Shown piece after piece: positions 23,699 through 54,106 of a stretch of DNA of 64,000 bases. This DNA comes from Bradyrhizobium sp. CCBAU 53340. GTDB lineage: Bacteria > Pseudomonadota > Alphaproteobacteria > Rhizobiales > Xanthobacteraceae. The notes below the pieces were generated by a model that made no database searches, had not been told where the DNA came from, and saw only the letters and a program-made list of their open reading frames with translations. Within the stretch, counting starts at the first letter, position 1, and the number at the start of each line of letters is the position of its first letter. Location of the stretch: positions 915,293-979,292 of the forward strand of contig NZ_CP030056.1 in NCBI RefSeq assembly GCF_015291645.1, written 5' to 3'. The position numbers were made by a program, and so were the translations under genes.

Positions 23699-23706
23699 AC
23701 TTGAAA
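23699..23706. repeat. IS66 target-site duplication, left copy (ACTTGAAA)
   Basis: ACTTGAAA directly precedes the left inverted repeat and recurs exactly at 30101-30108 after the right inverted repeat. Eight bases is the standard IS66 duplication length. Confidence 0.92.
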
Positions 23707-23730
23707 GTACGCCTCCGACGAGGACCGTCT
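23707..23730 (+). repeat. IS66 left terminal inverted repeat
   Basis: It begins GTACGCCTCCGACGAGGACC and matches the complement of 30077-30100 with a few mismatches. Confidence 0.88.
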
Positions 23731-23793
23731 TGCGTGACGGGTGGTAATTCGCGAAGCGTGTGACCTTAAGTCTAGCTTTAAGGTCATCAGGCG

Positions 23794-24195
23794 ATGCGGG
23801 TCGAAGTTTTGGGCGGGCTTGAGCGGCGGCGGCGTTGGTCGCAGGACGACAAGGCACGGATTGTCGAGGAGACGCTAGTACCGGGCGCGAAGGTAACTGA
23901 AGTCGCGCGGCGCAACGGAGTAGCGGCCAGCCTGGTGTTTACCTGGCGTCGACAAGCACGGACATCGGAACAAGTTGCACCATCTTTTACGCCGGTGCAG
24001 ATCGCCGCCGTAGCGGCCTCGGCTGAAGAAACTGCGAAGCTTTTGCCTACGGTTGATGGCCGAGTTCGCTCGGCGGCAGCCGCACGTACTGGATTGATAG
24101 AGATCGATCTCGGCAACCGACGGTGCATCCGGGTGGATGCGCACGTCGATCCGGAGGCGCTGGCGCGGGTCCTCGATGTGCTTGGACGCCGATGA
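23794..24195 (+). CDS. tnpA: IS66 TnpA (accessory, helix-turn-helix)
   Basis: A 133-aa first protein of IS66-type elements. A Tn3/IS3-type helix-turn-helix is visible in RRRWSQDDKARIVEETLVPG followed by TEVARRNGVAASLVFTWRRQ, and the C-terminal IEIDLGNRRCIRVDAHVDPE is typical. It is required with TnpB and TnpC for IS66 transposition. Its stop overlaps the tnpB start in ATGA (24192-24195), indicating translational coupling. Confidence 0.9.
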   Translation: MRVEVLGGLERRRRWSQDDKARIVEETLVPGAKVTEVARRNGVAASLVFTWRRQARTSEQVAPSFTPVQIAAVAASAEETAKLLPTVDGRVRSAAAARTGLIEIDLGNRRCIRVDAHVDPEALARVLDVLGRR

Positions 24196-26426
24196 TTGCT
24201 GTACCAGGGAATGTGCGAGTGTGGCTGGCGACAGGCTACACGGATATGCGCAGAGGCTTCCTGTCGCTGGCCCTCCAAGTTCAGGAGGTGCTGCGCAAAG
24301 AACCGCTCAGCGGTCATTTGTTCGTCTTCCGCGGTCGCCGCAGCGATCTTGTGAAGGTGATCTGGCACGGTGTGCTGCAGAGCATGAAGGAGGTGAATAA
24401 CCGAATTTGATGCGTACAGCTTTATGAGAGATGGAGGACGGCCCTCCTGCATCGGCGTTCCAGGCGCAGGTGCAAAACCACGACACTGTGGCTTCGTTTA
24501 AAAGGCGCGGTCATCAGCAAGTGTTGCAAAAGTCCCGGGTTTACGGGGCAGGTAAGTATCCAGAAGGCGAGCGAAAGCAAATCTTCCGATGACGCGTCGA
24601 AAATTACTAAGGCGTCGCCAAAATCAGGGGCGCGTGCCATCCCTGAGATCAATCCGTGAGACGCCTGGATTACTGCGCGGATGGCGACCGGCGTTTAGGG
24701 GACGCGATCTGGATACAGGCTCTTGTAGAGAACTGCAGGAACCAGTCGTTGTGATGCCAAGGGAGAAGTTCAAGCGGCACACACCGCGAGACGAGAGTAC
24801 CGAAGCACAACACTGGGGCGGATCGGCTCGTAGTAGTGATGAAGGTGCTGTAATGGAACTGGAGCGAAGGGGCCGAAACAAGTGGGTTGCGCCCATATGC
24901 AACTGTGATGAGCAGGAGGACATGTGAGTGTAACCGGACGTAAGCAGTACGATATCGACAAGCAGACAGTGATGAAGGCCTACAAACTGGTCAAAGCCAA
25001 TGCGGGCGCGGCCGGCGTGGATAAGGTATCGCTCGAAGCTTTTGAGAAGGACTTCAAGGGCAACCTTTACAAGGTCTGGAATCGAATGTCTTCTGGCAGC
25101 TACTTTCCACCTGCCGTTCGGGCTGTCCCCATTCCCAAGAAGAACGGCGGACAACGCATTCTAGGCGTGCCGACAGTAGCAGATCGCGTGGCGCAGACGG
25201 TCGTCAAGCTTCAGATTGAACAAGTACTCGAGAAAATCTTCCTTCCCGATTCCTACGGCTACCGGCCCGGAAAAGCCGCGCTGGACGCCGTCGGCATCAC
25301 CCGGCAACGGTGCTGGAAGATGGACTGGGTGCTGGAGTTCGACATCAAAGGCCTGTTCGACAATATCAGCCACCAGTTGCTTATGAAAGCCGTCAGGAAG
25401 CATGTGCAAGACGAATGGGCTCTGCTCTACATCGAACGCTGGCTAACAGCGCCGATGCAAGGCAAAGACGGAGCGATCACCGCTCGCGACCGGGGTACAC
25501 CCCAAGGCGGCGTGATCAGTCCCGTCCTTGCCAATTTGTTCTTGCATTATGCGTTCGATATATGGATGGCGCGAAACTTCCCGCAGTCACCGTGGTGTCG
25601 ATACGCGGACGACGGGCTCGTACATTGCCGAACCAAGGCTGAAGCGGAAGCCATCAAGGCGGCGCTGCAGGCGAGGTTCAGGGAATGCGAACTCGAAATG
25701 CATCCCGACAAGACCAAGATCGTCTACTGCAAAGATAGCAATCGCCCGGGTAGCCATGCCAGTCAGTCATTTGACTTTCTGGGATTTACCTTTCGACCGC
25801 GCAGGGCAAGAAACCATCAGAAGAAAGAAAACTTCTGTACGTTCTCGCCAGCGGTCAGCAGGGCGGCAATGAAGTCTATGCGGATGACGATCCGGCAGCT
25901 CCGGCTCAGGCTTCGCTCGCAGACGGAAATCGACGCAATCGCCTTGGAACTGAACCCCGTCCTTCGTGGATGGATGCAGTACTACGGCAGATATGGGCGG
26001 TCAGAAATGCATAACCTGTATCGATACGTCGACGAATCTCTAAACCGCTGGGCGCGACGCAAATACAAAGGGCTGAAGAATGGAAAAGTCAGGGCCTCCA
26101 CCAGGCTCAGGCTGATCCGCTGCCGTAGGCCGAAGCTGTTCGCTCATTGGACGATGTTAGGTTCTGCTTCGTTACTTGTTGAGAGCCGTATGACGTGAGA
26201 GCGTCACGTACGGTTCGGAGAGCGGCTCCGGGTGCAACTCCCGGGGCCGACTCACCATGGCCAGGGAGCATGCCTGTTCACTAAGAGACTTGAGAGAGGA
26301 AGGTTCGTCTGGCCATCGGTTGCGGGCGAAGCGGTGACGATCTCATCGGCTCAGATGAGCTACCTGTTGTCCGGAATCGATTGGCGCAACCCTCAAGAAA
26401 CTCATCGTCCGACGCGTGTCGGATAG
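24192..26426 (+). CDS. tnpB: IS66 TnpB, split by a group II intron (exons 24192-24369 and 26257-26426)
   Basis: Exon 1 encodes MIAVPGNVRVWLATGYTDMR and continues to VKVIWH. Exon 2 resumes GQGACLFTKRLERGRFVWPS and ends PTRVG. Joining 24369 to 26257 gives 348 bases, an open frame of 115 aa, which is the normal IS66 TnpB length, with the family's conserved WHDGQG at the junction. The junction may be shifted by one base. Without intron splicing the protein ends shortly after the 5' junction, so TnpB depends on intron removal. Confidence 0.88.
24924..26198 (+). CDS. ltrA: Group II intron reverse transcriptase/maturase (intron 1)
   Basis: A 424-aa intron-encoded protein that assists splicing and retrotransposition. 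RT blocks run from GAAGVDKVSLEAFEKDFKGN and GGQRILGVPTVADRVAQTVV through FDIKGLFDNISHQLL and TPQGGVISPVLANLFLHYAF to the catalytic CRYADDGLVH. FDFLGFTFRPRRAR and the maturase domain (LNPVLRGWMQYYGRYGRSEM) follow. No HNH endonuclease domain is visible at the C-terminus. The YADD box is intact, so the enzyme may be active. The frame ends inside domain V of its own intron. Confidence 0.92.
   Translation: MSVTGRKQYDIDKQTVMKAYKLVKANAGAAGVDKVSLEAFEKDFKGNLYKVWNRMSSGSYFPPAVRAVPIPKKNGGQRILGVPTVADRVAQTVVKLQIEQVLEKIFLPDSYGYRPGKAALDAVGITRQRCWKMDWVLEFDIKGLFDNISHQLLMKAVRKHVQDEWALLYIERWLTAPMQGKDGAITARDRGTPQGGVISPVLANLFLHYAFDIWMARNFPQSPWCRYADDGLVHCRTKAEAEAIKAALQARFRECELEMHPDKTKIVYCKDSNRPGSHASQSFDFLGFTFRPRRARNHQKKENFCTFSPAVSRAAMKSMRMTIRQLRLRLRSQTEIDAIALELNPVLRGWMQYYGRYGRSEMHNLYRYVDESLNRWARRKYKGLKNGKVRASTRLRLIRCRRPKLFAHWTMLGSASLLVESRMT
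26183..26216 (+). ncRNA. Group II intron 1 domain V
   Basis: The 34-nt catalytic hairpin pairs GAGCCGTA with TACGGTTC around a GTGACGC-type upper stem capped by GAGA. It is the same size and layout as 29090-29123. Confidence 0.87.
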
Positions 26427-26471
26427 CCGTTTTTGGTTTGAATCTGCGGCTTGATCTGATTCAATGGCTTC

Positions 26472-29400
26472 ATGACATCGAAGCCGGACGATCTTCCGTC
26501 GGATCTCGCGAGCGCCTACCTTGCGCTGCTGGCCGAGCGCGAGGCGTTGCAGGCTGAACGCGATGTGGCAGTCGCGGATGCCGCCAACGCGCGGGCGGAG
26601 CTGTCGGACAGCGAGGTGCTGATCGCTCATCTTGAGCTACGGATCGAGAAGCTCAAACGCGAACTGCACGGGCTGCGCTCCGAGCGCACGGCGCGGCTAC
26701 TCGAGCAGTTGGAATTGGAGCTCGAAGAACTCGCCACCACGGCGACCGAGAATGAGCTGGCTGCGCAGGCTGCCGCCGCAAAAACCCAGAGCGTAAGCGC
26801 CTTCACGCGTAAGCGGCCGGTGCGCAAGCCGTGGCCGGACGACATCGAACGTGAGCGCGTCGTTATCGAGGCTCCAACGACCTGCGCCTGCTGCGGTGGA
26901 TCGCGCCTTGCGAAGCTAGGCGAGGATGTGACCAAGACGCTGGAGGAGATTCCGCGTCGCTTTAAGGTCATCGAGACGGTACGCGAGAAGTTCACCTGCC
27001 GTGATTGCGAGAAGATAAGCCAGCCGCCGGCACCGTTCCATGCCACGCCGCGCGGCTTCATCGGTCCGCAATTGCTGGCGACAATGCTGTTCGACAAGTT
27101 CGGCATGCATATCCCGCTCAATCGCCAGAGCGTGCGCTTCAAGGCTGAGCGGATCGACCTGCCGCTGTCGACGCTGGCCGACCAGGTCGGCCACGGAACC
27201 TTCGCCGTCATGCCGTTGTTCCAGCTGATTGAGCGCCATGTCCTCGCCGCCGAGCGGCTGCACGGCGATGACAGTGTTCTGCAGAAGCACACAGAAAGGA
27301 TGATCAAAATGATCTGAAAATCTGTGCGCGCAAGCTGTGGCAGCGATGAGGGTAGGCCCCTCGGGATCGACTTTCAGGAGTAGGTCTCAAATCACTTCAA
27401 GCGGCTTCGCTTAAGAGGCGCGGTCGTGAGCGTTGAAGCTAACGGTCGGGGGAGACCCGAACGGATACGCGTCCGAGAGACGAATGAAAATGAACCCGCC
27501 GATGAACCGTCGTAACGTGGAAATCGTCGTCAAAACCAGAGGTGTGTCGTCCCTCTGGGATGAGCCCGCCGGGAGCCTGATGACCGGGCGGGCGGCGACC
27601 GGCGTTGAGGGGGCGTGAATCGGATGCAGGCGCTGCCGCGGAACTGCAGGAACCAGTCGCTCCGATGGAAAGGGAGAAGCACAAGCGGAGAAGACCGCGA
27701 GGCGAGATTACCGACGCGGAGCACTGGGACGGACCGATCCGTATTAGCGACGAAGGCTCGTAATGGGGCCGGAGCGAAGGGATCGGATCAGGTGGGCTGG
27801 CCATCGTCGCAACTGGCAACAGGAGGACGTCGATGAACCAGCCGAGCAAGCCGTTCAACATCGACAAGAGAGAGGTGTACGAAGCATATCTGCAGGTGCG
27901 ATCCAATGGTGGCGCAGCCGGTGTCGACGGAGTGACGATTGAGCAGTTCGAGTCCGACTTGAAGGGAAATCTCTACAAGATTTGGAATCGAATGAGTTCA
28001 GGCGCTTACTTCCCGCCGCCTGTTCGGGCTGTCTCCATTCCAAAGAAGAGTGGAGGCCAGAGGATCCTCGGGGTGCCCACCGTGGCGGACCGCGTGGCAC
28101 AGACAGTTGTTAAACAACTGATTGAGCCGGCTCTTGACGCAATCTTTCTGGCGGATTCCTATGGCTACAGACCCGGAAAATCGGCTCTCGATGCCGTAGG
28201 CGTCACGCGACAGCGGTGCTGGAAGTATGATTGGTTTCTAGAGTTCGACATCAAAGGATTGTTCGACAATATCGACCACGAGTTGTTGCTACGGGCCGTC
28301 CGGAAACATGTGACGTGCGCATGGGCGCTGCTCTACATCGAACGATGGCTGACAGCGCCGATGGTGCAAGAGGATGGAACGATAATCGAGCGAAGCCGCG
28401 GCACCCCACAAGGGGGCGTGGTGAGCCCGATCCTCGCCAACCTCTTCATGCACTATGCATTTGATCTCTGGATGGCGCGGACGTTCCCCGATCTCAGGTG
28501 GTGTCGGTATGCGGATGACGGGTTGGTACATTATCGGAATGAGATGGAGGCGCAAAGCGTTCGCGAAGCGCTCCAGGCTCGGCTGGCGGAGTGCCATCTG
28601 GAATTGCATCCTACGAAGACGAGGATCGTCTACTGCAAGGATGATCGACGCCGAGGTAAAAGCGAGACGGTCATGTTTGACTTTCTCGGTTATTGCTTCC
28701 GGCCACGATCGGTCCTGGGGCCGCATTCGCAGAAGATGTTCTGTGGGTTCACCCCGGCGGTCAGCAAACCAGCGCTGAACGCCATGCGGGCGAAGGTCCG
28801 AGGCTTGAAACTTCGCAGGCGAGCCGAGGTGACGCTGGACGATATTGCTCGCGAGCTAAACCCGATGGTTAGGGGGTGGATCGCTTATTATGGGCAATAC
28901 ACCCGCTCAGCGCTTTATCCGCTGGCGCGCTACATCAACCAGACGTTAGGTATTTGGTTGAAGCGAAAGTACAAGCGCTTCCATCACCGTTTAGGACGCG
29001 CGCGTCTCTTCCTGGAGAAGATCGCGCGTGAGAACCGCAGGCTCTTTGTGCATTGGCAACTCGGCGATGGCGGCAAGATTGCCTGATGGGAGCCGGGTGA
29101 GGCGAGAGTCTCACGCCCGGTTCTGCGAGAGGCTGGAGGTGAAATCCCTCCGGCCTACTCACCCCACCATCCGGATCCTGGCGAAGGGCAAATGCACGAC
29201 CGGCCGGATCTGGACGTATGTGCGGGATGACCGGCCGTTCGCCGGGCCTGCGCCGCCGGCGGCGGTCTATTATGCCTCGGGCAACCGACGGGGCGAACAT
29301 CCTCAGAGGCATCTGGCCGCCTTCGCCGGCATTCTGCAGGCGGATTGCTATGGCGGCTTCGAGCCGTTGTTCGATCCAAAAAGGAAAGCAATGCCGATCA

Positions 29401-30023
29401 CGCCGGCATTTTGCCTGGCCCATGCGCGGCGGGGATTCTTCGAGCTGGCTGACATCGAGAAAGCCGCCCGGGAAGGCAAGGGCAAACCGGTCTCCCCGAT
29501 CGCGCTGGAGGCGGTCAGGCGTCTTGACGCCCTGTTCGAGATCGAGCGCGCCATCAACGGCCGTGGTGCCGACGAGCGGCGTGCTGTGCGCCAGGAGCGG
29601 AGCAAGCCGCTGCTCGACGACATGCACGCCTGGCTGCTCCGCGAGCGAGAAAGCCTCTCCCGCTCCGCCGAGGTCCTGAAGCCCATGAACTACATGCTCA
29701 AGCGCTGGGACGACTTCGTCCGCTTCCTCGACGATGGCAGGATCTGCTTGACCAACAATTGCGCTGAGCGTGCATTGAGAGGCATTGCCTTGGGAAGGCG
29801 CAACTGGACCTTCGCTGGCAGCCAACGTGGCGCCGACCGTGCCGCTATCATGCTGACGATGATCACGACCTGTCGCCTCAACGACGTCGATCCCAAGGCT
29901 TGGCTCGCCGACGTCCTCGCCCGGATCGCCGATCTTCCCACCTCGCGTCTGCGCGAACTGCTGCCCTGGGAATGGAAGCTCCTGCACCAAGCCGGCAAGT
30001 CCGCCGATCAGCAAGCCGCCTGA
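26472..30023 (+). CDS. tnpC: IS66 TnpC transposase, split by a group II intron (exons 26472-27273 and 29164-30023)
   Basis: Exon 1 has an N-terminal coiled coil (LAEREALQAERDVAVADAAN onward), a zinc-finger pair (TCACCGG and FTCRDCEKI) and the start of the catalytic domain to ERLHGDD. Exon 2 continues ILAKGKCTTGRIWTYVRDDR through YYASGNRRGEHPQRHLAAFA to NNCAERALRGIALGRRNW, the IS66 DDE C-terminal signature. Joining 27273 to 29164 restores GDDTTIRILAKGK and gives 1662 bases, a 553-aa open frame of standard size. Unspliced, translation stops at 27317, before much of the catalytic domain. Confidence 0.9.
27833..29086 (+). CDS. ltrA: Group II intron reverse transcriptase/maturase (intron 2)
   Basis: A 417-aa protein with the same layout as the maturase in intron 1: GGAAGVDGVTIEQFESDLKG, the shared core GGQRILGVPTVADRVAQTVV, FDIKGLFDNIDHELLLRAVR, TPQGGVVSPILANLFMHYAF, the catalytic CRYADDGLVHY, FDFLGYCFRPRS and the maturase segment LNPMVRGWIAYYGQYTRSAL. 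No HNH domain is seen. The two proteins differ at many scattered positions across the length, so this is a diverged sister and not a recent duplicate. Confidence 0.92.
   Translation: MNQPSKPFNIDKREVYEAYLQVRSNGGAAGVDGVTIEQFESDLKGNLYKIWNRMSSGAYFPPPVRAVSIPKKSGGQRILGVPTVADRVAQTVVKQLIEPALDAIFLADSYGYRPGKSALDAVGVTRQRCWKYDWFLEFDIKGLFDNIDHELLLRAVRKHVTCAWALLYIERWLTAPMVQEDGTIIERSRGTPQGGVVSPILANLFMHYAFDLWMARTFPDLRWCRYADDGLVHYRNEMEAQSVREALQARLAECHLELHPTKTRIVYCKDDRRRGKSETVMFDFLGYCFRPRSVLGPHSQKMFCGFTPAVSKPALNAMRAKVRGLKLRRRAEVTLDDIARELNPMVRGWIAYYGQYTRSALYPLARYINQTLGIWLKRKYKRFHHRLGRARLFLEKIARENRRLFVHWQLGDGGKIA
29090..29123 (+). ncRNA. Group II intron 2 domain V
   Basis: The 34-nt hairpin starts GAGCCGGGTGAGGC and ends CGCCCGGTTC, with a GAGA-type loop. 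It is positioned directly after the maturase stop, as in other bacterial group II introns. Confidence 0.87.
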
Positions 30024-30076
30024 CCTTCACGCAACGCCATCGTAGAACTCGCCGTGCTCGCGCGCATGCGTCAATC

Positions 30077-30100
30077 AGGCGGCCTTCGTCGTATGCGTAC
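30077..30100 (-). repeat. IS66 right terminal inverted repeat
   Basis: It ends CGTCGTATGCGTAC at 30100. Its complement aligns with the left repeat at 23707-23730. It is followed immediately by the duplicated ACTTGAAA (30101-30108). Confidence 0.88.
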
Positions 30101-30108
30101 ACTTGAAA
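30101..30108. repeat. IS66 target-site duplication, right copy (ACTTGAAA)
   Basis: Exact repeat of 23699-23706. Confidence 0.92.
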
Positions 30109-39411: not shown

Positions 39412-41888
<2,477 letters not shown>

Positions 41889-48128: not shown

Positions 48129-48963
48129 GTGGCCGCTTCCTTCGACTCGGTCGACCACGAGTGGCTGTTGCGGATGCTGGCGCACAGGATCGCCGATCCT
48201 CGCATTCTACGGCTCATTGGGCTGTGGCTGCGGGCCGGTGTTCTGGAGAGCAGCGAGAAGCAAGAAACGGACAGGGGTACTCCGCAAGGGGCGGGCATCA
48301 GCCCGCTCCTCGCCAACGTCTTCCTGCACTACGTCCTCGATCTCTGGGCCCACCAATGGCGCCGTCGCCATGCACGCGGTCGCACCGTGCGCTATGCCCG
48401 ACGACTTCGTCATGGGCTTCGAGAGTAAGGCGGATGCGCAGGAGATGCTCTTGGCCCTCAAGGTGCGGCTGGCCAGCTTTGGCCTGATGCTTCATGAGGG
48501 CAAGACGCGGCTGATCGAGTTTGGCCGGTTTGAGGCCCTCTCGCGTCAGCGGCGCGGCGAGCGGCGGCCCGAGACCTTCGCCTTCCTCGGCTTCACCCAC
48601 TACTGCGGGCGGACCCGGGACGGCCGGTTCATGGTGAAGCACAAGACGGACGGGAAACGCCTGACGCGCAAGCTGACGGCGTTGCGCCAGGACGCCTGGC
48701 GGCTCATGCACGAGTCACTGGCCACGCAGCACCAGTGGTTCGCCGCTGTTCTGCGTGGACACTACGGCTACTACGGCAGGCCGCACAATTATCCAGCGCT
48801 CAACGGCTTCTACCGCGAAGTGCGTCGGACGTGGATGCGCTGTCTGAGACGGCGTAGCCAGAAAAGTCGGCGCATGGGCTGGTCGGAGTTCGAGACCCTG
48901 ACGACACACTTCCGTCTGCCCGGTCCGGGCATCACTCGCACTTGGGCGCAGGCGCGGATATGA
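48129..48963 (+). pseudogene. Group II intron RT/maturase, 5'-truncated and frameshifted
   Basis: The remnant begins inside RT block 2 (FDSVDHEWLLRMLAHRIADP). RGTPQGAGISPLLANVFLHY is intact, and then an extra C at 48397-48399 splits the catalytic box: TVRYA is followed by DDFVMGFESKADAQEMLLAL in the next frame, where YADDFVMG is expected. The maturase region (TFAFLGFTHYCGRTRDGRFM ... VLRGHYGYYGRPHNYPALNG) follows. The intron's 5' half, including the start of the gene, is missing at the boundary with the recombinase module. It belongs to a different lineage from the two IS66 introns. Confidence 0.8.
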
Positions 48964-48982
48964 CGCGGGTTACTCTCGGGAA

Positions 48983-49015
48983 GAGCCGGGTGCGGGAAAG
49001 CCGCCTGCCCGGATC
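48983..49015 (+). ncRNA. Group II intron domain V, remnant
   Basis: GAGCCGGGTGCGGGAAAG and the downstream GCCCGGATC form a domain V-like hairpin directly after the maturase remnant, with one mismatch in the upper stem. It shows that the 3' end of an intron is retained. Confidence 0.6.
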
Positions 49016-49318
49016 TGTGAGGGCGAAAGCCAAATGGCTGAGCTACTCGACCACGATCCAAACAGGCCAAGTAAGATCTCGATCTAGAGCCTGTTGTTTC
49101 TCCCGAATCGACATCGTCAGAGGGGAATTGTCTGATTTAATCCTATGCTGAGGAGGAGCGAGCTTGGATGATGCAACTCTATTCGGAAGGTCCTCGCCCT
49201 AGCGGAGGCGAGGCCTGTTCGTTACGGCGCTCATCAACCGGTTCCGAGGCATGGCGCCGAAACTGTACTCGCTGACCAGCACCGCGCAGCAGCAGGTCCC
49301 TTCCATTTATAGGCTGGT

Positions 49319-51555: not shown

Positions 51556-53673
51556 TTAGCTGGTTGCGGCGATCGGGTCACGACGCTCTCCTGGGGAAGT
51601 CTTATGTTGTGAAGCCTCTAGCTTGACGGATCCAATCGGCTGAACCGTAAAATCCGCAGCGAGATCCTGATACGAAAGAACAGGAAGGTCGATCCCGTTG
51701 CGGGTGAGAAAACCCCGGACGAAACGCCGGATATCCATCGAACCCAGAATGACGGGTTGGCTCTGACCGCGTGCGATGCTCGAATGGATCTTGCGAAACT
51801 GCGAAAGCAGCATCTCGCTATCGCAATCGTCCAAAACGAGATAAGGACCCACGGCGGTGTCGCGCACCGCACCGCGCACGATATCCTCGGTGTGGCGCTC
51901 TACGATAAAGGCTGCCACGACACGGTGGGCGTTGGCATAGCGATGACAGATCTGCCGTTTCAGACCGGAGCGAACATATTCGGTAAGCAACACAACATTT
52001 TGTTCGCGCTCACTCCATTCTGCCAACACCTCCAGGACCAAGCGAGTGTTGCGAATTGGGATGCCCTCGTCCAGTAAGCGGCGCAGGACATCGGCGATCC
52101 GGGGAACCGGCATCGTGCGCAGCACCTCCTTCACCAGATCGGCATATTCCTGCTCCATTCGGCCCAGCAATTGTCGGGTCTCCTGAATGCCCACCAGGCG
52201 CTGTGCATAGCGCATCAATGTCGACTGGACGCGCAAGGCGACGACTTCGCTCGGACGGTGATACCCTATCCCGGCTGCTTTGAGAGCCGGCGCATGAAGT
52301 TGTTCGATCCAAATCCGATTTGTCTCTACGTCTTGCCGAAAGGGGATACCGCTCAATTCAATATTCGCTACGTCGTCGTTGAGCATGAGTTGCGTCGGAT
52401 CCACAAAATCTCGCCCAACGGGCACTCCCTCAACGTCTACCCTGAATTGCGATTCAGGTAAAAGCTGGTCTATCTTGGTTGGTATGCGCGGAATTGTGAT
52501 ACCAAGATCAGATGAGACCAGTGTCGATATTCGCACGATTGCCTGCTCGAGTTCCTCTTTGTCGATTGCACCTGCAAGGTTTGGTGCGAGGAACAGCGCG
52601 ATTGGAAGGGCCTCTGCAGGCAAGGTCTGTTTCTGACCCTGCGATGGAGCTTGAGGCGTACCGGCGCTACTGACCTCCGTCTTGGCGGCGTTCTTGGCGC
52701 GCTGCACGCCAACATTGACAAAGCTCGCCGCGCCGAAGAGTACGGCCAGCATGATGAACGGAGGCAAAGGGAAACCCGGTACGAGCCCCATCACAATCAG
52801 GACGCCGGCGGCCAACCGCAGCGCTTGCGTGCTGGCCGTCAGTTGGCTGACAATATCGCCACCCAGATTGAGCTGCAAAGGACCATTGACACGAGTGACA
52901 ATGGTTGCAGCCGTAATTGACAGCAGCAGAGCCGGGATCTGCGAAATTAGCGCATCACCTATGGTGAGGATCGTATATTGATGCAGCGTCTCCTCCAGGG
53001 GCATGCCCTTGGAGAGCAAGCCGATTGTGATGCCGCCCAGCATGTTAATGCAGATAACTATGAGCCCGGCGATGGCGTCGCCCTTCACAAATTTCATAGC
53101 GCCATCCATAGCGCCGTGAAGTTGGCTCTCTTGCTCCAGCGCCGCTCGCCGACGGCGAGATTCGTTCTGATCGATGTGCCCGTTGCGCAGTTCCGCGTCG
53201 ATTGCCATCTGCTTGCCCGGAAGCGCGTCGAGCGTGAAACGCGCCGACACTTCTGCGACCCGTTCTGCGCCTTTGGCGAGAACCATGAATTGCACCATGG
53301 TCACAATGAGGAATATGACGATGCCAACAGCGATATTGCCGGATATAACGAAATCGCCGAATGTATGTATGATGCTGCCGGCATCCCCCTCCGCAAGAAT
53401 CAACCGCGTCGTCGCGACGGTAAGCGCTAGGCGAAAGACGGTCGAGATCAGGATGACGCCTGGCAAGGACGAAAAGTCAAGCGGCGTCTTGAGATACAGG
53501 GCCACCATCAGCAGCAGTATGGCAAAGCCGAGGTTGAAGCCGATCAGCATGTCGATCAATACGATCGGGATCGGCATGATCATCATTCCGATCGCCAGAA
53601 GAAGCATCAACGCGACCATCAAATCTGGGTTAGCTGGTGCGCGCACGATGAGACTATGCAGGGTATTGGCCAT
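51556..53673 (-). CDS. rhcV: T3SS export gate protein SctV (RhcV)
   Basis: A 705-aa inner-membrane export-gate protein. The N-terminal half has seven or eight membrane segments and the FHIPEP-family signature RLALTVATTRLILAEGDAGS, followed by GDFVISGNIAVGIVIFLIVT. Next come the conserved cytoplasmic loop (SARFTLDALPGKQMAIDAEL) and RRRRAALEQESQLHGAMDGA. The C-terminal cytoplasmic domain, which forms a nonamer ring to receive substrates, includes GREFVDPTQ-like and LSYQDLAADFTVQPIGSV text. ATG 53673 is used; upstream frame to 53775 overlaps the TPR gene. It is the last intact gene of the nopC operon. Confidence 0.93.
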   Translation of the reverse strand: MANTLHSLIVRAPANPDLMVALMLLLAIGMMIMPIPIVLIDMLIGFNLGFAILLLMVALYLKTPLDFSSLPGVILISTVFRLALTVATTRLILAEGDAGSIIHTFGDFVISGNIAVGIVIFLIVTMVQFMVLAKGAERVAEVSARFTLDALPGKQMAIDAELRNGHIDQNESRRRRAALEQESQLHGAMDGAMKFVKGDAIAGLIVICINMLGGITIGLLSKGMPLEETLHQYTILTIGDALISQIPALLLSITAATIVTRVNGPLQLNLGGDIVSQLTASTQALRLAAGVLIVMGLVPGFPLPPFIMLAVLFGAASFVNVGVQRAKNAAKTEVSSAGTPQAPSQGQKQTLPAEALPIALFLAPNLAGAIDKEELEQAIVRISTLVSSDLGITIPRIPTKIDQLLPESQFRVDVEGVPVGRDFVDPTQLMLNDDVANIELSGIPFRQDVETNRIWIEQLHAPALKAAGIGYHRPSEVVALRVQSTLMRYAQRLVGIQETRQLLGRMEQEYADLVKEVLRTMPVPRIADVLRRLLDEGIPIRNTRLVLEVLAEWSEREQNVVLLTEYVRSGLKRQICHRYANAHRVVAAFIVERHTEDIVRGAVRDTAVGPYLVLDDCDSEMLLSQFRKIHSSIARGQSQPVILGSMDIRRFVRGFLTRNGIDLPVLSYQDLAADFTVQPIGSVKLEASQHKTSPGERRDPIAATS

Positions 53674-53683
53674 GAGAAGCCTG

Positions 53684-54106
53684 TTATTGTTTGATTGGAG
53701 CAGCGCTCCGCAATGAAACATAGCTCTTGAAGAGTGCGCGTGCCTCGGCCATGCGGCCGGCCTGACGAAGCGCATGACTGCGCAAGACCATCAAAGGCAG
53801 GCGCGAAGACGGGTCGTCGTCAAGCTTGTCTAACCTGTCCAGTGCCGCCAATGCGTCGTCACCGTGGCCCTCCGAGATCAGAGCGTAGACCAGAATGCGG
53901 AGCAGCTCGACGTCGTAAGAATGTTCGTGAGCTACGATTTGCAACAGAGCCAGGCTCTGTGCGCTCTGACCGCAGGCAAGATGGACATACGAAAGCGCGC
54001 AGAGCAAATCACGCTCCCTTCTTGTGATGTGCAAAACCTCACCGGCACGTGATAAGTGTGGCGGCGGAGCAGGTGTGAGGTGTTGCTCTCCGTCAGGCGC
54101 GGCCAT
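53684..54106 (-). CDS. TPR protein of the T3SS operon (chaperone-like)
   Basis: A 140-aa protein with about three tetratricopeptide-like repeats: RDLLCALSYVHLACGQSAQS, VELLRILVYALISEGHGDDA and LMVLRSHALRQAGRMAEARA. It ends ten bases before rhcV and begins three bases after the preceding gene, so it is part of the operon. Rhizobial T3SS loci carry a TPR protein at this place (a y4yS-type protein), thought to be a chaperone or pilotin-like factor. Exact role is unknown. Confidence 0.75.
   Translation of the reverse strand: MAAPDGEQHLTPAPPPHLSRAGEVLHITRRERDLLCALSYVHLACGQSAQSLALLQIVAHEHSYDVELLRILVYALISEGHGDDALAALDRLDKLDDDPSSRLPLMVLRSHALRQAGRMAEARALFKSYVSLRSAAPIKQ

Follow-up and report, generated by a model that had tools for sequence, protein, structure and literature searches.

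Two group II introns, dedicated to tnpB and tnpC, in a single IS66 element of Bradyrhizobium

The 64,000-nucleotide stretch of DNA analysed here (the window; positions 915,293 to 979,292 of contig NZ_CP030056.1 from Bradyrhizobium sp. CCBAU 53340) contains an insertion sequence (IS) of the IS66 family whose tnpB and tnpC genes are each interrupted by a group II intron, designated I1 and I2, respectively. The explanation we favour, and in which we place considerable confidence, is that a single IS66 copy has been colonised by two introns of the RmInt1 type, both apparently built to splice, which would together act as a double brake on the IS. As judged from their sequences, the two introns are built to splice: the pairings with the exons, domains V and VI and the maturases have all been preserved, and both TnpB and TnpC become whole again once the introns are precisely removed. 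By virtue of its exon-binding site (EBS) sequences I1 would be dedicated to tnpB, within the codon of the invariant Asp60, and I2 to tnpC, immediately after the first base that follows the Asp-Asp/Glu codons. The incongruence between introns and exons and the maturase tree show that the introns came laterally from other, more distant IS66 lineages; each would have arrived separately, through retrohoming. Transposition of this IS66 in the cell should require splicing of both introns, and, if RmInt1 is a guide, little spliced mRNA is probably made, which would make them a double brake rather than harmless passengers. Introns in IS elements are of a known kind; what is new in this case is that two genes of a single IS each have an intron dedicated to them.

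The element occupies positions 23707-30100 and is flanked by an exact 8-bp target duplication, ACTTGAAA (left copy 23699-23706, right copy 30101-30108, both as read in the sequence), 8 bp being the length of the target duplication in the IS66 family; this 8-mer occurs four times in the window against 1.25 expected, and only one pair abuts the element ends. The terminal inverted repeats (23707-23729, forward strand, and 30078-30100, reverse strand; all other features of the element are on the forward strand) had been described as matching, and they are present but imperfect, with 18 of the first 23 bases in agreement. The genes are those of the family, i.e. tnpA (23794-24195; 133 amino acids, HTH_Tnp_1), tnpB (PF05717) and tnpC (PF03050, with zinc finger and C-terminal element). 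Exon 1 of tnpB (24192-24369) comprises codons 1-59 and the first base of codon 60, and is followed by I1 (24370-26256; 1887 nt) and by exon 2 (26257-26426); exon 1 of tnpC (26472-27273), with codons 1-267 and the first base of codon 268, is followed by I2 (27274-29163; 1890 nt) and by exon 2 (29164-30023), both introns being sense-oriented relative to their host genes. Joining the exons yields an element of 2617 nt with TnpB of 115 and TnpC of 553 amino acids and no internal stops, as the original prediction had anticipated, and the Pfam scores rise accordingly: 128.5 bits to PF05717 for joined TnpB against 61.4 for the open reading frame with the first half alone, and 268.9 bits to PF03050 for joined TnpC against 51.2 and 196.9 for its separate halves. 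Translation without splicing hits a stop 41 nt into I1 and 44 nt into I2, so that both proteins would indeed depend on splicing.

The limits of the IS, of its target duplication and of both introns, all of them proposed beforehand, proved correct to the base. The splice boundaries are unique, neither being movable by one base, since in I1 and I2 alike the last base of the upstream exon is not the same as the last intron base, nor does the intron begin with the base that opens the downstream exon. Intron-free relatives are contiguous exactly at the I1 site (TGGCACG|ATGG in 12 of the 12 loci shown) and at the I2 site (GACGACA|CCACC in 10 of 12, those in which the pattern located the tnpC site). 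Such relatives had been named as a possible source of contrary evidence, and their exons are those of a contiguous IS66 at both sites. A one-base shift of the splice sites towards a consensus AY 3' end is ruled out by these empty sites, and a frameshift at the exon junctions by the intact joined frames and their Pfam matches.

The maturase open reading frames of I1 (24924-26198; 424 amino acids) and I2 (27833-29086; 417 amino acids) are open throughout and show the YADD motif and the RVT_1 and GIIM domains; Pfam found no endonuclease domain in either of them. Rfam models of group II domains D1-D4 and of domain V matched above threshold in both introns, and the terminal regions (26181-26256 in I1, 29088-29163 in I2) each fold into a D5 hairpin followed by D6 with one bulged A (26250 and 29157) seven bases from the 3' end, folds that none of 200 shuffles equalled. 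The anticipated pair of group II introns of about 1.89 kb with YADD maturases is thereby confirmed, and both have the complement of mobile group II introns, namely ribozyme domains, D5/D6 with its bulged A, reverse transcriptase (RT)/maturase and pairing between the EBS and the intron-binding sites (IBS) of the exon. In I1, EBS1 (CGTGCCA, 24633-24639) forms 7 bp with IBS1 (TGGCACG, 24363-24369), and EBS2 (GGTCATC, 24509-24515) pairs with IBS2 (GGTGATC, 24356-24362); in I2, EBS1 (TGTCGTC, 27545-27551) forms 7 bp, one of them G-U, with IBS1 (GATGACA, 27267-27273), and EBS2 (GTCGTG, 27423-27428) pairs with IBS2 (CACGGC, 27261-27266), G-U pairs being counted throughout.

These pairings are not a peculiarity of the window, as EBS1 and EBS3 covary with the targets across relatives. 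Among relatives at many targets, an EBS1-IBS1 pairing of at least 6 bp was present in 40 of 43 rows of the pairing table; when only distinct loops are considered it reached at least 7 bp in 16 of 19, with a mean of 6.84 bp compared with 3.40 bp when the targets were shuffled, the largest mean among 2000 target shuffles being 4.95 bp. The candidate EBS3 column corresponds to base 327 of I1; in 35 of 38 rows it complements the base that opens the 3' exon, the next best column reaching 27 of 38. Two rows of the table, those of L139 and L014, erroneously combine the 5' end of an I2 with the 3' end of an I1, and they can account for at most two of the three misses. In the window the candidate bases are T24696 of I1, complementary to A26257, and G27607 of I2, complementary to C29164, the latter being a position taken from the alignment column with the base placed by eye.

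Both insertion points fall at strongly conserved residues, as assessed on divergent IS66 copies reduced at 80% identity. I1 splits the codon of TnpB Asp60, invariant in 14 of 14 sequences, while the residues just before the site are variable (Trp58 in 8 of 14, His59 in 7 of 14). In TnpC, all 13 sequences have Asp266, which we take to be the catalytic residue that opens the DDE triad; it is followed by Asp or Glu at position 267 and, in 12 of 13 sequences, by Thr268. I2 is located after the first base of codon 268, thus one base past the Asp-Asp/Glu codons of this Asp-Asp/Glu-Thr motif. Introns of IS630 elements sit at the corresponding base of an Asp-Glu-Thr motif. The EBS1 of these introns, T[CT]TCGTC, is one base apart from the TGTCGTC of I2. 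Our reading of these sequences is that the intron clade may recognise conserved codons of mobile elements, often those of the active site.

The association of each intron type with its gene holds throughout the relatives retrieved. The flanks of 281 loci were checked, overlapping loci being counted repeatedly and the insertion common to six genomes (see below) many times. All 49 loci whose maturase shares 90% identity or more with the I1 protein adjoin TnpB (both halves in 25, one half in 24), and all 73 whose maturase shares 82% or more with the I2 protein adjoin TnpC (both halves in 34, one half in 39); where one half was seen, the other was past the end of the contig or locus or was lost. 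The insertion codon was identical wherever the boundary was read in these relatives. Among the loci listed, which were 140 of 188, maturases at most 72% identical to those of the window sit at other targets. These targets include IS630-type transposases, at Phe-Ile-Asp-Glu|Thr (the 3' flank of L036 matches PF13358, DDE_3, with 106 bits); a Phe-Leu-Gly-Tyr| site in the RT gene of a different group II intron, where the inserted introns of L023 and L108 are of the RmInt1 type and have a matching EBS1 (PF00078); and, as read by eye, the D5 loop of yet another group II intron, likewise entered by RmInt1-type introns (L024, L101 and L102). The latter D5, again by eye, is nearly the same as that of an intron remnant elsewhere in the window: this remnant, at 48141-49051, belongs to a third group II intron, of distant relationship, and comprises RT pieces at about 48141-48347 and 48388-48855 and a domain V at 48981-49051.

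In a maturase tree of 58 rows with midpoint root, the introns of the two genes fall into two clades, each with support of 100/100, eight introns of tnpB in one and eleven of tnpC in the other; the tnpC introns, the RmInt1 clade and an intron of strain GR4 are united in a 32-row clade (100/98) which leaves the tnpB introns outside. Since the tnpB and tnpC introns form separate clades, IS66 was probably adopted as an intron host at least twice. Recent duplication of one intron was rejected as the origin of I1 and I2, which share about 71% of their DNA and 62-63% of their protein sequence over the aligned parts and belong to separate clades. I2 can be assigned to class D/IIB3, its intron-encoded protein grouping with those of RmInt1 and RmInt2 and containing only RVT_1 and GIIM domains; I1 falls just outside this clade, in a tree that has no labelled members of other classes, and its RNA ends and EBS1 hairpin match the RmInt1 type. 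Neither is RmInt1 itself, which is characterised by the EBS1 TTTCGTC and an IS630 target. A bolder formulation, which we offer tentatively, is that two RmInt1-type lineages converged on IS66 through EBS1 sequences that read near-invariant codons, within a clade that, as related introns at comparable codons of IS630 transposases and of other introns' RTs suggest, would be specialised in conserved and often active-site codons of mobile elements and could switch host family by very few changes in EBS1. The two introns would then constitute an AND gate, the IS66 moving by its own means only when both splice in one cell. On the explanation that we favour, IS66, which is abundant and constrained at the target codons, would supply the introns with lasting targets; this suggests that they persist by occupying codons with little freedom to vary in the host element.

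Recent lateral movement of introns between IS66 copies is evident from sequence comparison, because near-identical introns sit in exons that are only about 70% identical. This was the case in the three within-genome pairs compared: in G218, two IS66 elements with downstream exons 69% identical have copies of I1 that agree at 1267 of 1267 bases; in G011, two copies of I1 are 99.9% identical over 1829 bases with upstream exons at 67% over 169 alignable bases; and in G199, two copies of I2 are 99.95% identical over 1851 bases in exons at 69-74%. Likewise, the I2 of the window is 97% identical to that of L009, the tnpC exons being about 70% identical, and its I1 shares 98% identity with the I1 of L124, with exons at 69-77%. 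G218 also contains a 5'-truncated I1 (G218:C1:8006295-8007503) whose RT frame is reported open for 2123 amino acids.

A maturase at least 90% identical to that of I1 was found in at least 13 of the 264 genomes of the genus and one at least 82% identical to that of I2 in at least 19 of 264, partial matches included. These counts are lower bounds, as they derive from the best six (genus) or best four (order) RT candidates per genome; the remnant pair of introns in G074 (see below), for instance, escaped this search. Among 397 genomes of the order, searched at E limits of 1e-170 and 1e-215 and with the best four candidates each, no further I1-type maturase was found, and I2-type maturases (83-87%) appeared in at least two further genomes. 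IS66 elements with zero, one and two introns, for which a search with comparison of flanks had been proposed, were all recovered. A search of the genus with exon 1 of tnpC yielded 30 loci: the six with both introns, which represent one insertion, and 24 without either (L145-L168, of the same and sister subfamilies, several of them, e.g. L149, L150, L160 and L161, with an incomplete exon 2 in the sequence available). I1 alone is present in L126 (G204), where TnpB and TnpC are open, and in L132 (G244), whose exon flanks are 98-99% identical to intron-free copies, whose maturase is broken and whose tnpC match ends after 141 bases; I2 alone is present in L009 (B. uaiense) and L030 (a Hyphomicrobium bin), with TnpB and TnpC open over the aligned part. 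Two introns occur in three distinct elements, i.e. that of the window, L014 and L278. L014 is a 5.2-kb contig of an Acidobacteriaceae bin, a label that may be wrong, with I1 from base 801 at 96%, exons at 87-89% and I2 at 88% identity; L278 (G074) retains 130 bases from the end of I1, together with an I2 that is incomplete and interrupted. In the tree, the I2s of the window element and of L014 group apart, with L009/L104 and with L018, respectively, so that these two elements came to hold both introns independently of each other. The original prediction had called the arrangement unusual, which is true of two introns in one IS, with three cases, and less so of single introns in IS66, given the genome counts above. 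With the three states of occupancy in one genus, silencing and tolerance of the host IS become measurable. A different form of nesting was apparent in L016 (6294-8243; a Methylocystis bin), where an I2 in tnpC is split near base 1852, in domain VI, by about 1.95 kb carrying a 30% identical RT, apparently an intron within an intron within an IS.

How the introns reached this particular copy can be considered from the exon sequences beside them, which are mosaic. The 196 bp 3' of I1 (26257-26452, a tract that includes exon 2 of tnpB) show 31 differences from seven intron-free copies and the 44 bp 5' of I2 (27230-27273) show eight, compared with 2.3% elsewhere (binomial 5e-17 and 7e-6, respectively, for tracts delimited once the differences had been seen). 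The I1 tract is similar to an IS66 subfamily other than that of the window element, the best match (95%) being in G090 with an intron-free tnpB site. These tracts may reflect co-conversion at intron arrival or other recombination among IS66 copies. It is conceivable, though we regard it as doubtful, that both introns entered mainly by DNA recombination between IS66 copies instead of retrohoming, a route compatible with the other readings discussed here and for which the divergence of the two tracts speaks. However, the opposite side of each intron has hardly diverged, L132, which carries I1 alone in the same subfamily, has no such tract, and no donor with an identical tract was found among the 264 genomes (best three candidates per genome; top identity 95%).

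The consequences of double occupancy for the IS can be approached through the best-studied relative, RmInt1 of Sinorhizobium meliloti, an intron of class D/IIB3 in ISRm2011-2 (IS630 family) whose maturase is 69% identical to that of I2; the comparison was made with the pSymB intron of strain 2011 (L219), which we labelled RmInt1 because its EBS1, TTTCGTC, equals the published one. RmInt1 and the window introns are alike in their ends, in the form of the EBS1 hairpin, in residing in a transposase gene and in an RT/maturase without endonuclease domain; RmInt1 and I2 further share the position one base after Asp-Glu/Asp codons (Ile-Asp-Glu| at the RmInt1 site) and a run of C at the 3' splice site. 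They differ in host (IS630 versus IS66), in EBS1 (TTTCGTC versus TGTCGTC in I2) and in that two intron lineages share the IS of the window. According to published work, RmInt1 ligates less than 1% of its exons in vivo and blocks its host IS (PMC4238363, PMC5894124), and the C run at its 3' splice site lowers splicing fidelity (PMC4238363). I2 may be suspected of poor splicing on this ground. Therefore, by this analogy, a double brake on IS66 appears likelier than a free ride. The cryptic IBS1 sequences of the 3' exons reach at best 5 of 7 pairs for I1 and 6 of 7 for I2.

Several observations weigh against our explanation. EBS1-IBS1 pairing was not found in 3 of the 43 rows of relatives, and EBS2-IBS2 pairing, good in the window, amounts to 4 bp or is lacking in several relatives. 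The 3' splice site of I2 lies within a run of four C, whereas I1 has no such run, and the low splicing yield is taken over from RmInt1. The mosaic tracts leave room for arrival through DNA recombination. Lastly, many intron-bearing relatives of this IS66 have a broken or incomplete TnpC (e.g. L010, L017, L018, L027 and L050), as would be expected if loaded elements are often dead.

The distribution of the element itself bears on whether it still moves. The same element occupies the same site in G047, G048, G147 and G148. The flanks compared, about 3 kb on each side, are 100% identical in all four, and the element itself is 100% identical in G048, G147 and G148 and 99.86% identical in G047; in G263, a contig of 4298 bases lies wholly within the element and is 100% identical. 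The window lies on a symbiosis plasmid: its positions 15833-41083 are identical over 25,251 bases to part of the plasmid (981,946 bp) carried by CCBAU 51658, an isolate of Bradyrhizobium guangdongense from peanut nodules, and the plasmid database PLSDB lists the same I2 maturase on plasmids of B. guangzhouense, B. guangxiense and two further Bradyrhizobium. Six independent insertions are ruled out by the common flanks in the five genomes with flank sequence; the six genomes carry one insertion event that has spread with the plasmid. The PLSDB gene table, which leaves out pseudogenes, lists tnpA and both maturases and omits tnpB and tnpC, and these two genes were therefore probably called broken in that annotation. 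In the copy of G047 (L120, on the plasmid of the B. guangxiense type) the reading frame is broken in exon 2 of tnpC and again shortly before the I2 maturase ends, which may reflect sequencing errors. Elsewhere on the plasmid of the window element, at another flank, lies a truncated second copy (L185, 4863-6085) with the 3' end of I2, the whole exon 2 of tnpC and the right end, differing from the window element at 8 of 1223 bases, four each in intron and exon. In place of its lost left part there is transposase-like sequence, presumably the end of an IS3-type element. L185 is compatible with movement of the loaded element, without proving it.

The original prediction had suggested that the nested unit may be alive. 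In that case its introns would splice efficiently enough for the IS66 to transpose near-normally with both on board. This proposal has in its favour the intact ends, target duplication and reading frames, the exon pairings, the second I2-bearing copy L185 and a ratio of nonsynonymous to synonymous substitution rates (dN/dS) for TnpC of 0.06-0.12 against six intron-free copies. The codon test (18 comparisons, of which two were partial, with 378 amino acids of tnpC in L148 and 90 of tnpB in L152, the tnpC of the latter containing a stop) showed no decay, but most of the divergence probably predates the introns, so that dN/dS does not date them and most of the signal is likely to be older than they are. 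Moreover, the genomes with the element have one common insertion site instead of several, L185 may have acquired its I2 through homing, one of the six copies (L120) is frameshifted and the RmInt1 precedent is one of very low splicing. The sequence would allow the element to work, and we consider the proposal quite improbable. The opposite possibility, that the introns no longer splice and the IS66 is an inert fossil linked to a recently spread symbiotic plasmid, also seems unlikely to us. A single insertion with 100% identical flanks in five genomes, that of the window included, says nothing of independent persistence, many relatives are degraded, and no intact close intron-free copy that might help in trans was found in the genome, the next open TnpC being 56% identical. 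Against it, no lesion was seen in the tested ribozyme pairings, D5/D6, maturases or exons of the window copy. The double brake that we favour would make this element a natural, testable case of two retroelements jointly controlling a DNA transposon.

Other associations of introns with IS elements help to place this one. RmInt2 of S. meliloti GR4 (L220, a label assigned by us) has a maturase 71% identical to that of I2 and belongs to the same 32-row clade, and differs from I2 in target and EBS. In IStrons the IS lies inside the intron. They are described as one chimeric element of a group I intron and an IS (PMC4227781), and on that description they resemble the window element in combining a self-splicing intron with an IS and differ from it as single group I chimeras as opposed to two group II retroelements in IS genes. 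For RmInt2, the reported targets are IS end repeats, i.e. the inverted repeats of ISRm17 (PMC5894124). E.c.I4, according to the passage available, is dedicated to positions in the IS3-type transposases of IS629, IS911, ISEc16 and ISEc31, and thus resembles the window introns in its attachment to specific sites of a transposase family; it is another intron in another IS family, and that passage describes no IS with two introns (PMC3522654). A literature search of titles and the beginnings of abstracts, with little coverage of subscription literature, retrieved no report of two introns in one IS66. Downstream of the IS66 element, the window also contains an IS21-type element (39412-41885) and a type III secretion export gene of the hrcV/sctV family (51556-53775).

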